Source: a virus. Taken from it: DNA of 49,688 bases. Below, piece by piece: positions 27,520 to 44,064 of this stretch (positions are counted from its first letter, which is position 1; each line of letters opens with the position of its first letter). The stretch spans positions 1-49,688 of the IMG/VR virus record IMGVR_UViG_3300036790_000126. One strand, written 5' to 3'. The notes beneath the pieces were generated by a model, which did not search any database, had not been told where the DNA came from, and saw nothing but the letters and a program-made list of their open reading frames with translations. The position numbers and the translations under genes were made by a program.

Positions 27520-28389
27520 TTACGCCGCCCCACCGTGGCTGGCTGCAGCTTCGGCTACCGCGCGGATTTCCCTAGCAGCAACCGCTGTGTAGCGCTGTGT
27601 CGTCGCCACCGATGCGTGCCCTAGAGCTTCCTGGACTGCTCGCAGATTCCCGGTACCCGCATAGCCTCGGGTGGCGAAGCGGTGCCGAAGTTTATGCATC
27701 GACCAGCCGGGCGGCATCACCTTACTGACGAGGTGCCCGACCCGGTCGGGGCTGATGTGTCCGTCGATCTTGCCGGGGAACAGAAACCCTCCGAACGGGG
27801 ACGCCTTGGCGAGTTCGGCAGCGAGGGTGACGGTGATCGGCACGACCCGCTGTTTGTTGCCTTTGCCGTGGACGATCAGTTCGGCTCCGTCGATGCCGTT
27901 GACCAGATCATCGCTGTGTACGCAGGCGACCTCAGCGCGGCGTAACCCTGCTTCACAGGCTAGGCGCGCCATCAGGCGGGTGCGTTCGTCGGCCGTCGCC
28001 AGGATTTGGCGCCACATGTCATCGGTCGCGGGCCGCGGTGCCCCGATCGCGGCCCGCACAGATGGGAGAGTGAGTGTCGGGTCGGCATCGACCACCCCGG
28101 ATATGGCGCACCAGCGGTAGAATGATCCCAGGCTGGCCCGCAGACCTCGTCGGTGTTCAATCGAATACTGCGGACGCCCGAGAACAGCCAATAGGTCGTC
28201 GCCCGTTACATCACGGGGATGGTCGGTCCCGATGCGACGGGCTACTGCGCGGACGTGGGAGCGCCGTGTTCGCTGTGTCGCCTGGGATGTTCCGGCGGCG
28301 ATCAACCAAGTCATCCACCCGGTGACGGCGGTATCCCAAGCATATGGTAGAGAGTAAGAAAGACTATGTAATTGCCCCATGGGGTGCAT
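27520..28389 (-). CDS. int: Tyrosine integrase
   Basis: 289 residues from ATG 28389 (GGAGAG site); an upstream ATG at 28419 is less favoured. An N-terminal SAM-like domain is followed by the catalytic domain: CEAGLRRAEV (Arg), HGKGNKQRVVP (Lys), HKLRHRFATR (His-x-x-Arg), LGHASVATTQRY (His, Tyr). It catalyses attP-attB recombination. The C-terminus ends SHGGAA; a di-alanine tail is the kind of ClpXP-type degradation tag reported for Int in integration-dependent immunity phages. Confidence 0.92.
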   Translation of the reverse strand: MHPMGQLHSLSYSLPYAWDTAVTGWMTWLIAAGTSQATQRTRRSHVRAVARRIGTDHPRDVTGDDLLAVLGRPQYSIEHRRGLRASLGSFYRWCAISGVVDADPTLTLPSVRAAIGAPRPATDDMWRQILATADERTRLMARLACEAGLRRAEVACVHSDDLVNGIDGAELIVHGKGNKQRVVPITVTLAAELAKASPFGGFLFPGKIDGHISPDRVGHLVSKVMPPGWSMHKLRHRFATRGYAGTGNLRAVQEALGHASVATTQRYTAVAAREIRAVAEAAASHGGAA

Positions 28390-28544
28390 GTTTACTCTCC
28401 GGTAACTTAGATGGTGCATTCATTCAGGTGATTGCCAGCCCCAATACAACGCTTTGGCAGGTTCGCGTTCAGTAATTCCTCCCCGCCTCTCGGGGACCAA
28501 CCTCTAATCAACAGATTACAGGTTTGTAATTCACAGCGGGCGCA
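28390..28544 (-). other. int-rep gap with small palindrome
   Basis: 155 bases without a clear gene. They contain ATTACA-GGTT-TGTAAT (28515-28530), a perfect six-base palindrome, overlapping GATTACAGGTTT (28514-28525), which recurs at 28632-28643. Possibly integrase arm or core binding sites. Confidence 0.5.
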
Positions 28545-29039
28545 TCACGCTGCCATAGGCACCCCGTACGGTAGAGTCGCGCTCAGTCCCCTGTAGCTCA
28601 ATCTGGCAGAGCATTCGGCTGTTAACCGAAGGATTACAGGTTTCTCTAGACCCTCAGTTGGACCGATCTGGCGGGTAGCTTCCTCGTTGAGAGAGCCGTC
28701 TTCCTCCATGACGAGGATGCGTGCGCGGCGCGGGATGTCGATTATTCGATCATTAGACGGGGACGCTTCTTTCTCCGCATCCCCTTGCGGAGGGTGAGGC
28801 ATCGCGTCGCCACCTTCAATCCAACTGAGCGGGACCGAACAGTGGAAGGCCCACGCGCGCAGGGTAATCCTGCGGGGGGCGACGCGGCCGAGTTCGGCGT
28901 TGCCGATGGTGTTGCGCGAGACTCCTATGAGCTCGGCGAGTTCCTCTTGCTCGTAGCCGGCGAATTCACGGGCTATGCGCAGGCGGTGGCGTAGCAGCAC
29001 TGGCGGGATCTGACCCGCCTCATATGCACTGGTTGTCAT
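28545..29039 (-). CDS. Immunity repressor with attP core in its 3' end
   Basis: 164 residues. A Cro/C1-type helix-turn-helix at about residues 17-60 (RLRIAREFAGYEQEELAELI, VSRNTIGNAELGRV) is followed by a dimer or linker region. Residues 133-151 (KPVILRLTAECSARLSYRG) are simply the antisense of a tRNA-Asn segment, and the tail LSATLPYGVPMAA ends in AA. After integration at tRNA-Asn the last 13 residues would be replaced by host-encoded sequence. This matches the BPs-type system, where loss of a C-terminal degradation tag stabilises Rep. Confidence 0.85.
   Translation of the reverse strand: MTTSAYEAGQIPPVLLRHRLRIAREFAGYEQEELAELIGVSRNTIGNAELGRVAPRRITLRAWAFHCSVPLSWIEGGDAMPHPPQGDAEKEASPSNDRIIDIPRRARILVMEEDGSLNEEATRQIGPTEGLEKPVILRLTAECSARLSYRGLSATLPYGVPMAA
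28587..28643 (+). other. attP: Probable attP core: 5' part of tRNA-Asn (GTT)
   Basis: TCCCCTG, the D-arm GCTC...GAGC, the anticodon arm TTCGG-CTGTTAA-CCGAA (anticodon 28621-28623) and the T-stem start ACAGGTT follow tRNA-Asn up to the T-loop. After 28643 the match ends and no 3' acceptor strand is present, so it is not a working tRNA gene. It lies inside the repressor gene beside int, where an attP core is expected. A TAGAGT box 10-15 bases upstream could serve as a promoter for the rebuilt tRNA. Confidence 0.8.
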
Positions 29040-30891: not shown

Positions 30892-31062
30892 ATGTCTCAC
30901 GAAATCTTACCAAGCGAAGTACTCCCGGTGCGGGAGGTGGATGACCAAGCCGAGTTCGACGCTGACCTCGCCTACCTCAAAGGGCTGGCTGGGGCGATCT
31001 TCGAACACGCGACACCCCACGCCCTGGTGCGGATCGCAGCATTCGACGGTGCCCGCAAGTGA
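30892..31062 (+). CDS. Small acidic protein
   Basis: 56 residues from ATG 30892, with an AGGAAGGCC site. Acidic and helical (DDQAEFDADLAYLKGLAGAI). Overlaps the next GTG. Unknown function. Confidence 0.65.
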   Translation: MSHEILPSEVLPVREVDDQAEFDADLAYLKGLAGAIFEHATPHALVRIAAFDGARK

Positions 31063-31361
31063 CCCGCTACATCTTGTGGGGCATGGTCATCGGACTGGTC
31101 ATCGGGGGTTCGGGATGGTTGTCCGCCCAGGCTGACGCTGCCACCATCCAACACCCCTCCATCTGTACGGCTTTCGACAAGGCCCCCACGTTCGCTTCGG
31201 TGAATCAGGTGATGCAGTCGCTGCTCGACAACGGCCACGACGTGAAGCAGGCGGCTGAACTGGTAGTTCACACGGTTGAATCCCGTTGTCCTCAGCATCT
31301 TTCCCTCCTTCACGCGTATGTGGATGCCGGCGTGTTCCTGTACCCGGAACTCACACGATGA
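31059..31361 (+). CDS. Secreted DUF732-like protein
   Basis: 100 residues from GTG 31059. A signal peptide of about 28 residues (ILWGMVIGLVIGGSGWLSAQ then ADA) is followed by a small helical domain. It has paired Cys (PSICTAFDKAP and SRCPQHL) and a LLDNGHDVKQAAELVVHTVE helix, typical of mycobacterial DUF732. One of three such proteins here. Secreted DUF732 proteins are common in mycobacteria but uncharacterised; here it sits among early genes and may alter the lysogen surface. Confidence 0.72.
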   Translation: MTRYILWGMVIGLVIGGSGWLSAQADAATIQHPSICTAFDKAPTFASVNQVMQSLLDNGHDVKQAAELVVHTVESRCPQHLSLLHAYVDAGVFLYPELTR

Positions 31362-40885: not shown

Positions 40886-41335
40886 ATGAACCGCTTTGAA
40901 CATGGAACGCGCCTGTCTTATCAGGCTGGTTGCCGCTGTGACCTGTGTAAAGAGGCGGAGTCTTCGTATAAGCGTGGTTTGCGGCAGCGGAAGCGTGAGG
41001 CTGTAGGGGTGGTTGGTGCACCGACGGTGTCGGCGTTGTCCCTGGTGTCCGGTGACGGCACTGTGACCCCTACCAGCGGGGATGCTTCGGTGGGTGCTGT
41101 TGAGGCTGCGGTGGCGCTGGAGATTGAGGGTTTGGGCGCTGATCGGGGGGGTTTGAAGCAGACGGTGTTGGCGTTGGCCCGGATTATGGATAATCCGAAG
41201 GCTACGAGTACTCAGCCGGCAGCTGCGGCGAAGTTGGCGGACATGTTGGAGACGTTGCGGAAGTCGACGGATGGCCGGAAGTCGAAGCTGGGTTCGGTTA
41301 GGTCTATGACCAGCAGAAACGCTAAAACGGGTTAG
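40886..41335 (+). CDS. Terminase small subunit (putative)
   Basis: 149 residues from ATG 40886 (upstream in-frame starts exist at 40859). FEHGTRLSYQAGCRCDLCKE, then AESSYKRGLRQRKRE and a C-terminal TQPAAAAKLADMLETLRKS helix are typical of actinobacteriophage small terminases. It would recognise the packaging site just upstream. The large subunit follows after a three-gene interruption. Confidence 0.72.
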   Translation: MNRFEHGTRLSYQAGCRCDLCKEAESSYKRGLRQRKREAVGVVGAPTVSALSLVSGDGTVTPTSGDASVGAVEAAVALEIEGLGADRGGLKQTVLALARIMDNPKATSTQPAAAAKLADMLETLRKSTDGRKSKLGSVRSMTSRNAKTG

Positions 41336-41610
41336 TGCAGGGTGTCGGGGCAGATGTTGTGTTGTGCTGCGTCGATGATGGAGTCAGCCCACGGTTGTTG
41401 GACGATCAGGAATTGGTTTGCGGGGGGTCGGCCTTTGCCGGCGTGTAGGTAGTCGCATACTGCGTAGCCCATTTTGATTTCTTGTCTAGGTCCGACGATG
41501 GCTAGGACGCCGTGGGCGTTTAGGTCGTTGATGTAGGTTTGGTCGTCGGCGTGTGCTGTGGGTGCGACCAGCGCAAACGCGGCACCTAGTAGGGGAATTA
41601 GTAGCCTCAT
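41332..41610 (-). CDS. Secreted DUF732 protein
   Basis: 92 residues from ATG 41610. A signal peptide MRLLIPLLGAAFALVAPTAHA-like start (cleavage after AHA) is followed by DDQTYINDLNAHGVLAIVGP, a Cys (AVCDYLHAGKG) and a C-terminal NICPD Cys, the typical DUF732 pattern. Leftward, opposite its late-gene neighbours. Probably a moron expressed from the prophage. Confidence 0.85.
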   Translation of the reverse strand: MRLLIPLLGAAFALVAPTAHADDQTYINDLNAHGVLAIVGPRQEIKMGYAVCDYLHAGKGRPPANQFLIVQQPWADSIIDAAQHNICPDTLH

Positions 41611-42149
41611 CGGTTTCCGTTCGGGGGGCAGTAGACCTCTTGCGCGGTGGCCACGAAGGTGGCCTGCGTTTTCAGGTTGGTTCCCGGGGTACTTCTGACC
41701 GAGGCTTCGGCGATTTGCGGGGCGGTATAGCCCTGGGATAGCAGATCGCATACGTTGTGGCCGCCGTTGAGGACAAGGGGTGGAGAGACGACGACGACGT
41801 CGCGTTGTTTGAGTAGCGCGATGAACCGCTCGTCGGGGCTCTGCGGCTGGACCGGGGGCGACGGTATGATCACCGGTTTTACCGGCGCAGGGTTTGCTGA
41901 CTGCGTGACCTGGGGTTTTGCGGGTGCGACCAGCGGTTTTCCAGCACTTTGCGGCCACGCCAAAAACGTGCCGGCCCCGATCGCCGCGCAGGCCGCTGTC
42001 ACAGCCACAGCTGTGGGGAGTTTCCAGCTCCGTGACGGCTGGTAGGCGATGACGGTGGGCGCATCGTCAGCTTGTGACCAGGCGTGAATGGACTGGGTTT
42101 CGTCTTCGACGACGTCGGCGGCCTGGGTGGGGTCGAGCATGAGTGTCAT
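41607..42149 (-). CDS. Membrane-anchored DUF732 protein
   Basis: 180 residues. N-terminal cytoplasmic part, one TM (AVAVTAACAAIGAGTFLAWP), a Pro-rich linker, then a DUF732 domain (DERFIALLKQRDVVVVSPPL, NVCDLLSQGYTAPQIA, VYCPP). It overlaps the secreted DUF732 gene by 4 bases, so both form one leftward transcript. Layout is like chromosomal mycobacterial DUF732 membrane proteins. Confidence 0.84.
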   Translation of the reverse strand: MTLMLDPTQAADVVEDETQSIHAWSQADDAPTVIAYQPSRSWKLPTAVAVTAACAAIGAGTFLAWPQSAGKPLVAPAKPQVTQSANPAPVKPVIIPSPPVQPQSPDERFIALLKQRDVVVVSPPLVLNGGHNVCDLLSQGYTAPQIAEASVRSTPGTNLKTQATFVATAQEVYCPPNGNR

Positions 42150-42229
42150 AGTGCCATTAACCGCCGGTCACACGCTTAAGTTCCACATTTCTACTGCCTG
42201 TTCCCTGTGAGTTTGTCGAAAGGTTCCTG
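42150..42229 (-). promoter_or_regulatory. Likely promoter region of DUF732 pair
   Basis: 80 bases between divergent genes (rightward 42230, leftward 42149). A promoter for the leftward pair must lie here or overlap the neighbouring gene; TTAATG (complement of 42156-42161) is a weak -10 candidate. No clear -35. Confidence 0.35.
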
Positions 42230-42505
42230 ATGGCCAACCAGAGTTACGCGCAGGCCACCGTAACGGTGGGAACCACAGCCACGAAAGTGTGCACGGTCCC
42301 CGCAGAAAACGATGATGTTCTCGTCTACTGCAGCGCCATAACCGTCTTTGGTGGCCCGTCTGTGACCGCTACCGGGGCGACTGCAGGGATTACGGCTCCC
42401 ATTGGCCTGACGCACATCCCGTCTGTGGGTGGCGTGGTGCATGACCTGTATGCGATTGTCGCATCCTCCACCAGCTCCGTGTCGTACCTCTATCCCGCGG
42501 TGTGA
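42230..42505 (+). CDS. Small structural-type protein
   Basis: 91 residues, beta-rich and Val/Thr/Ala-rich (YAQATVTVGTTATKVCTVPA). A good GAAAGGTTCCTG site. Similar small genes are seen near terminase genes in mycobacteriophages and may be head decoration proteins. Overlaps the terminase start. Confidence 0.65.
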   Translation: MANQSYAQATVTVGTTATKVCTVPAENDDVLVYCSAITVFGGPSVTATGATAGITAPIGLTHIPSVGGVVHDLYAIVASSTSSVSYLYPAV

Positions 42506-44064
42506 TCAAGGGCTGTGAGACGCCGCGCATCTATACCGAACCGCGGCGCGAACTCACCGAAGCAACAACCCACGGGTTCGCGTGTATCGCGTTTGCTGAA
42601 CAAATCCTTGAGATAAAGCTTTTCCCCTGGCAAAAGTGGCTCCTGATCCACGGCCTCGAACTGGACGACAGCGGTTTGTATAAAAACCGCACGAATGTGG
42701 TGGTCGTCGGACGCCAGAACGGCAAAAGCCTGTTGATGGTGGTTTTGGCGTTGTGGCACATCTACGCCCTCGACTCTAAAAAGGTTATTGCCACCGCGCA
42801 GGATCTATCTCGGGCTGAGGAGTCCTGGGAAGACGCCGTCGAATGGGCGATGACCAACGATGAACTCGAACCGTTAATTGCTGGGACTGGGGATCGGGAT
42901 CGGGCCGGCGTTAAACGCGGCCACCCCAAACGTCTCATTCTTGATACGGGCTGCGAATACCGTGTGGCCTCCGCGTCGAGGCGGGGTGGTAGGGGTTTCT
43001 CGGGGGACCTGATTTTGATGGACGAGTTGCAGGAGCATCAAGCCTGGGATTCGTGGGCTGCGGTGACGAAAACGACGATGGCCCGCCCCAAAGCGCAGGT
43101 GTGGGCGTTCGCCAACGCCGGCGATTTGCAGTCCGTGGTCCTACGGCATTTAAGGGCTAAGGCGCACCGGGATTTGGGTTGGCCTGACGGCGACGCCGAT
43201 AAAAGCATCCTCGACGAATCCGATGAGGGTATCGCGGCCCTTCTCGAAAGCGTTGGTCAAGTCGCCTCGGGTTTTTACGAATGGTCCGCCCCGCCTACAT
43301 CGCCGCGAACAGACATGGCGGCTCTGGCGCAGGCTAATCCGGCGATGAACCACACCGACATTGTTGATGACTGCGTCACTGAGCGGGCGTTGATTCACGC
43401 TTTGGCGGAGGATCCGGCCGCGGTTTTTGATAAGGAATGCCGCTGCATCTGGGTCGCCTCCTCCGATGGGGGCCCGTTCCCGTCCGAAGCATGGTCGGAC
43501 ACCGGCGACACTGCCGCCAATGTTGGTGCAGGCTCCTCGAGTTCGGTGTGTGTGGAAATCGACGTCGACCGCTCAAGAGCCTATCTAGCCCGCGCCACCA
43601 TGGATATGCAGGGCAAACCCGTGTTTGGTGTGTGGGAAGACAAACCCGGCACCGACTGGATTATTCCGTTCCTCAAAAAGCACCGGTCCAGATTCAACGG
43701 GGTTGTGGTGAGGATCGGGTCACGGATTCCCGCAGCCTCTCTTGCGGCGGAGATTGAAGAAGCTGGGCTGCCGTTCATCAAATGGCAAGCCACCGAAGTT
43801 GCTGCGGCGCACGGGCAGATGTTCGACGCATTGAAAGACCGCCGCATAAGGCATTTACCGCACCCGGGCATGGATTCGGCAGCTACTACCGCCGCAACGA
43901 AAGTCGGGCCCGAAGGCGGATGGGTACTGGACCCCCTCAAGTCCCCCACCGACACCGCCCCGTTGATGGCCGCTATCGGCGCGGTGTGGGGTTTGCAGAA
44001 CCTCCCCGACGACAGACCAAGCATCTATTCGATGGCCGACGGCCCCGATGTTCTAGTCCTGTAA
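42502..44064 (+). CDS. Terminase large subunit
   Basis: 520 residues from GTG 42502. Walker A VVGRQNGKS (about 69-76) and Walker B LILMDELQEH (about 170) show the packaging ATPase. The C-terminal VCVEIDVDRSRAYLA starts the RNase H-like nuclease domain, with PHPGMDSAATTAATKVG late. It packages DNA into the prohead. Confidence 0.93.
   Translation: MIKGCETPRIYTEPRRELTEATTHGFACIAFAEQILEIKLFPWQKWLLIHGLELDDSGLYKNRTNVVVVGRQNGKSLLMVVLALWHIYALDSKKVIATAQDLSRAEESWEDAVEWAMTNDELEPLIAGTGDRDRAGVKRGHPKRLILDTGCEYRVASASRRGGRGFSGDLILMDELQEHQAWDSWAAVTKTTMARPKAQVWAFANAGDLQSVVLRHLRAKAHRDLGWPDGDADKSILDESDEGIAALLESVGQVASGFYEWSAPPTSPRTDMAALAQANPAMNHTDIVDDCVTERALIHALAEDPAAVFDKECRCIWVASSDGGPFPSEAWSDTGDTAANVGAGSSSSVCVEIDVDRSRAYLARATMDMQGKPVFGVWEDKPGTDWIIPFLKKHRSRFNGVVVRIGSRIPAASLAAEIEEAGLPFIKWQATEVAAAHGQMFDALKDRRIRHLPHPGMDSAATTAATKVGPEGGWVLDPLKSPTDTAPLMAAIGAVWGLQNLPDDRPSIYSMADGPDVLVL

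Follow-up and report, generated by a model that had tools for sequence, protein, structure and literature searches.

The DUF732 gene pair and its surroundings

Between the genes for the two terminase subunits in viral record IMGVR_UViG_3300036790_000126, whose 49,688 bp make up the window analyzed here, we found two small leftward genes, A and B, each encoding a protein with a DUF732 domain (Table 1). A preliminary description of this DNA had reported two leftward DUF732 genes, one secreted and one membrane-anchored, and the pair indeed lies exactly within 41332-42149, with both proteins scoring above the curated Pfam cut-off of 22.4 bits for DUF732 (PF05305) (27.6 bits for A and 47.4 bits for B). 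The same description had placed them, reversed, between the terminase subunits. The reversal stands, as terS and TerL are both rightward, but an additional rightward gene of 91 aa separates B from terL. B and A overlap by 4 bp (ATGA), the stop codon of B lying over the ATG of A, and the stop codon of A overlaps that of the convergent terS by 4 bp. Judged from its position, with homologues directly before terL in relatives, the latter gene probably encodes the small terminase.

Table 1. Features of the window, in order of position
Feature	Positions	Strand	Evidence or remark
Tyrosine integrase	27520..28419	-	Pfam Phage_integrase 2.4e-20
Repressor-like gene	28545..29039	-	PHROG 2328 4.4e-24
Third "DUF732-like" ORF	31059..31361	+	Early region; PHROG 658 1e-5 only
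Small terminase-like gene (terS)	40886..41335	+	PHROG 37967 2.6e-25
Gene A	41332..41610	-	92 aa from ATG; Pfam DUF732 3.8e-6; PHROG 658 1.5e-11
Gene B	41607..42149	-	180 aa; Pfam DUF732 2.6e-12; PHROG 658 3.8e-15
Candidate promoter GGAAC-N18-GTT	42159..42184	-	Ends 9 nt before B ATG; sigma-E-type consensus, leaderless spacing
91-aa gene between B and terL	42230..42505	+	Sequence comparison
Terminase large subunit (TerL)	42502..44064	+	PHROG 9 5.8e-62

The mechanically called reading frame of A opens at GTG 41958. Because 41610 is the first position of the signal peptide MRLLIPLLGAAFALVAPTAHA, the ATG there was taken as the start instead. Residues 1-21 of the resulting protein are hydrophobic in the hydropathy profile and form a predicted Sec signal peptide, with the cleavage site between AHA and DD. 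Alignments show a conserved cysteine pair at positions 52 and 87, and the DUF732 domain is predicted as a small helical bundle (model pLDDT of 82.7). Homologues of A are found in L004, L005, L006, and L028 (L and G numbers are our handles for loci and genomes), as well as in Adephagia gp40 (35% over 96%).

B has an N-terminal cytoplasmic tail, a transmembrane segment at the hydrophobic stretch of residues ~46-64 in the hydropathy profile, a Pro-rich linker, and the DUF732 domain at residues 106-175. The charged SRSWK precedes the helix, and an N-in/C-out anchor is predicted. The domain, with two conserved cysteines (134 and 174) in alignments, was modelled as a small helical bundle with a pLDDT near 90, and homologues are present in L005, L006, L031, and L096. 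By sequence and hydropathy, both proteins thus have an extracytoplasmic DUF732 domain with a conserved cysteine pair, brought there by a signal peptide in A and by an N-terminal transmembrane segment in B. A search of the PDB by sequence and by fold gave no significant match to the DUF732 domain of either protein.

In the tails of B-type proteins, acidic residues follow a common AWS motif, and some chromosomal DUF732 membrane proteins (L044 and L050) have it too. A longer motif, TQS(I/L)xAWS, is kept in the tails of B-type proteins of four phages including L031 (residues 13-28 in the window) and could be a binding or phosphorylation site.

A third gene, at 31059, had been described as DUF732-like as well. 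It matches part of PHROG 658 (the second half of the profile), to which A and B also belong by profile match, and has weak matches in M. abscessus prophages. The Pfam search gave no match at an E value of ≤1, so the DUF732 cut-off was not reached. As its relation is marginal and its position early and rightward, we do not count it with the A/B pair. A reading of this gene as a haemophore was dropped, with NCBIfam TIGR04530 giving 15 bits (E value of 0.021) against a cut-off of 120.

The region has no megablast match among GenBank phages, and an Rfam search gave no match in it either. At the protein level, A and B match phages of Mycobacterium only, and the best GenBank relatives of TerL are M. 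abscessus prophages (53%). DUF732 was present in all 31 genomes of Mycobacterium, the genus of M. canariasense, at 2 to 31 copies each, and in none of 14 control genomes. Taken together, these three distributions point to a mycobacterial host, and the tyrosine integrase and repressor-like genes make the phage look temperate. A plasmid search for DUF732 returned one weak match only. In Mycobacterium genome G048, an A-like secreted DUF732 gene (L085, 12850-13155; Pfam 4.9e-9) adjoins a tyrosine integrase gene, with transposase genes nearby, and appears to be another DUF732 gene of a mobile element.

The terS-terL site in related phages

Relatives were gathered by TerL searches of viral contigs and genomes. 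The near set consists of the window and six relatives with TerL identities of 62-87% (L004, L005, L006, L031, L096, and L007), and five of these seven genomes (the window, L004, L005, L006, and L031) have the cassette at the terS-terL site. The pair is not a product of chance, since independent contigs carry these genes at this very position and their protein sequences are conserved. Their content varies. Both A and B are present in L006 (TerL 63%) and in L005 (83%), where an extra gene separates terS from A. L004 (86%) has A only, and L031 (65%) has a 61-aa membrane gene and a 63-aa HTH-like gene, followed by B. In L096 (63%), terS stands directly before terL, and HTH-like and B-like DUF732 genes run leftward just after terL. 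The L007 contig ends before the site. No DUF732 gene was found at the site in L098 (TerL 54%), about 20 M. abscessus prophages (53-54%), genome G016 (51%), an M. canariasense prophage (49%), or Gordonia phage Hibiscus (47%).

Because terS lies immediately before terL in the M. abscessus prophages and L098, as in L096, A and B are extra genes between genes that are adjacent elsewhere, as expected of a moron. Among relatives the cassette is absent, moved, or varied, so it is no constant element of their packaging module, which upholds the moron-like insertion proposed in the preliminary description; a reading of A and B as fixed packaging genes was rejected on the same grounds. An own terminator is a common but not universal trait of morons. 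Two common moron traits were not seen in the pair, as a terminator consensus scan, of a kind that misses many sites, found none on the minus strand, and the GC and GC3 of the region are not unusual where a foreign base composition was sought.

The retention of the cassette at the site in most of the near set could also mean that A and B belong to the lytic program (packaging, lysis, or envelope preparation) and were reversed by happenstance, and some phages do have DUF732 genes in an early, rightward region, e.g., Fruitloop gp54. We consider this unlikely, because the cassette is absent or shifted by one gene in relatives that share the terS, terL, and portal genes, because A (in L031) or B (in L004) can be missing, and because the transcription of the pair opposes the late operon.

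The 91-aa gene, for which no family match was obtained at a useful E value, accompanies every cassette at the terS-terL site and is missing from L096. Its counterpart in L031 (4995-5573, minus strand) has an insertion of ~100 residues, which looks like a beta-rich surface domain of phages, and the product is a possible capsid decoration protein. The extra gene of L005 (605-1318), at the same junction sequence CGGTTAGTGCAG, encodes 237 aa with a terS-like N-terminal stretch and an endonuclease-like look; no Pfam match above the cut-off was found for it. In genome G016 (L086, 9567-10001), a reversed membrane-protein ORF without DUF732 lies between terS and terL, and insertion of reversed envelope genes in this gap may be general. 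The TerL gene of L097 (IMGVR_UViG_3300036772_000130, 552-2262) looks split, with ~19 codons at 552-608 and the remainder from 2262, around a low-complexity insert of ~1.65 kb that is either an intervening element or an assembly artefact.

Phylogenetic analysis shows that the cassette has a history different from that of its neighbor. In the TerL tree, the window groups with L004 (99/96) and L006 with L096 (99/97). The tree of DUF732 domains joins both window proteins to their L006 counterparts (99/98 for A and 100/96 for B) and groups the L004 and L005 copies of A (100/99). This conflict argues that cassette genes moved between genomes. The gene boundaries would fit such exchange, as A of L004 begins inside the leader (GTTAATGGCACTATGACA) that precedes B elsewhere and B of L031 ends in the TTAGTGCAG tail that closes A elsewhere, as though L004 had lost B by excision and L031 had lost A. 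A and B are on different branches of the domain tree, whose ~70 columns give little resolution for the descent of one from the other.

The phylogeny with chromosomal DUF732 that the preliminary description had called for placed both A and B among the chromosomal copies. This placement, together with the abundance of DUF732 in the hosts, would also suit passenger host genes that bring no benefit, were recently captured, and are decaying. Such an origin is improbable in our judgment, given that the reading frames are open despite divergence to 40-75% protein identity and that unrelated phages have genes in the same layout. We infer that temperate mycobacteriophages repeatedly recruited host DUF732 genes, whose membrane and secreted forms may work together.

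Candidate leftward promoters

The gap before B is 80 bp long and contains a GGAAC...GTT motif, whose end lies exactly 9 nt upstream of the start codon in the window (N18), L005 (N18), and L004 (N19), with diverged spacers between the two halves; in L006 the motif is degenerate (GAAAC). GGAAC-N18-19-GTT is the sigma-E promoter consensus of C. glutamicum, identical to the mycobacterial one, with the C at -31, and the same source lists promoters whose distance to the start codon is 0 or 1 nt (PMC10012870). With the ATG of B as +1, the motif in the window has the C at -31 and GTT at -12 to -10. At that distance it appeared in 7 of 5,000 dinucleotide shuffles of the 80 bp, a count to be read with the fact that the motif was picked after inspection and is expected by chance about twice per window. 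A sigma-70 scan of the region found nothing.

In L031 and L096, exactly 7 nt separate the first gene from TTGACA-N16-TAGACT or TAGAGT (found in 0 and 1 of 5,000 shuffles), which we predict to be leaderless sigma-A-type promoters of perfect consensus. Five cluster K phages have TAGGCT or TAGACT 7 nt before gene 40. No TAnnnT was found 4-12 nt before B in the window, while it is present in L031, L096, and the five cluster K phages, so the window resembles the kind of Adephagia gene 40 at most with another promoter type. The two sets of motifs suggest that cassettes of one kind are served by two types of leftward promoter, both probably leaderless.

Adephagia gene 40 was found by RNA sequencing of a lysogen to be "relatively strongly expressed" in the leftward direction (PMC11373665). 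With this homologue and the predicted consensus leftward promoters in cassette relatives, expression of A and B in lysogens appears most likely. A reading as toxins was rejected, as overexpression of Adephagia gp40 was not toxic (PMC11373665). A toxic-gene screen does list another DUF732 gene, Troll4 gp76 (PMC7474061).

Leftward expression of Adephagia gene 40 also runs antisense to genes 37-39 (PMC11373665). Accordingly, the transcript itself might be what acts here, with read-through from A yielding an antisense RNA that keeps the packaging genes off in the prophage; the convergent overlap of A and terS, on a minus strand where the scan found no terminator-like site, would be in line with this. 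We hold it to be very improbable, since it leaves the conserved export signals and DUF732 domains unexplained and since the cassette may sit after terL (L096) or be absent.

Related systems and a proposed role in the lysogen envelope

Lysogeny-associated DUF732 genes of mycobacteriophages are already known, and the pair in the window is a further variant. Adephagia gene 40 (cluster K; "LprJ-like," DUF732, Pfam 4e-10) is, like its homologue A, secreted and leftward, but it is an isolated single gene beside the integrase and attP without a membrane-anchored partner, and it has the sigma-A-type -10 element TAGGCT 7 nt before its start instead of the GGAAC...GTT motif. In Gaia, gp166 (secreted) and gp165 (membrane-anchored) are adjacent DUF732 genes with a 4-bp GTGA overlap and layouts like those of A and B; there, however, the secreted gene comes first, gp165 has two DUF732-like stretches, and the genes are far from terL. 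Gene 2 of both prophiGD43A-1 and prophiGD91-2, M. abscessus prophages, has the B-type layout (AWS tail, transmembrane segment, Pro-rich linker, and DUF732-like end) but lies beside the integrase near the attachment end, with no secreted partner seen. The WXG-100 toxin-immunity cassettes of M. abscessus prophages encode exported proteins and are expressed in lysogens from prophage promoters (PMC8092301). They resemble A and B as opposite-strand prophage cassettes for exported proteins and differ in type VII export, toxin domains, location at attachment junctions, and unrelated proteins.

We think it likely that A and B form an accessory, exchangeable, moron-like leftward operon of a temperate mycobacteriophage, which is transcribed in the prophage and modifies the lysogen envelope. 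In the prophage, a promoter of its own within the gap before B would drive the operon and probably yield a leaderless mRNA, with the surrounding rightward late genes silent; during lytic growth, late transcription would pass antisense over the cassette. The ATGA overlap would couple the translation of B and A. B would be anchored in the inner membrane, the DUF732 domain facing outward and the conserved tail inward, A would be exported by the Sec pathway, and the two would modify the envelope of the lysogen. The envelope is suggested as the place of action by the export signals, the lysogenic expression of a homologue, and the accessory status of the genes.

What the modification would do can be proposed only tentatively: it possibly hinders superinfecting phages, which we favor, or helps the host cope with envelope stress. 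Exclusion of superinfecting phages is the most parsimonious guess because it would account for the allele exchange, and the sigma-E-type promoter motif suggests the alternative. Ltp-type superinfection exclusion lipoproteins, as in S. thermophilus phage TP-J34 (PMC3952083), are small, surface-exposed exported proteins of temperate phages. The likeness to A and B is that of a small exported phage protein with no known sequence relation, and exclusion by A and B is a hypothesis. A more elaborate picture, in which the secreted and membrane DUF732 proteins are a two-part prophage envelope device under a sigma-E-type leaderless stress promoter, swapped as a cassette beside terL, strikes us as rather doubtful.

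DUF732 is heavily multiplied in mycobacteria, and a cassette with a secreted and a membrane form offers a small testable system for the role of the family in the envelope. Its short promoter region and the natural A-only and B-containing variants help in testing whether prophages alter their hosts via DUF732.
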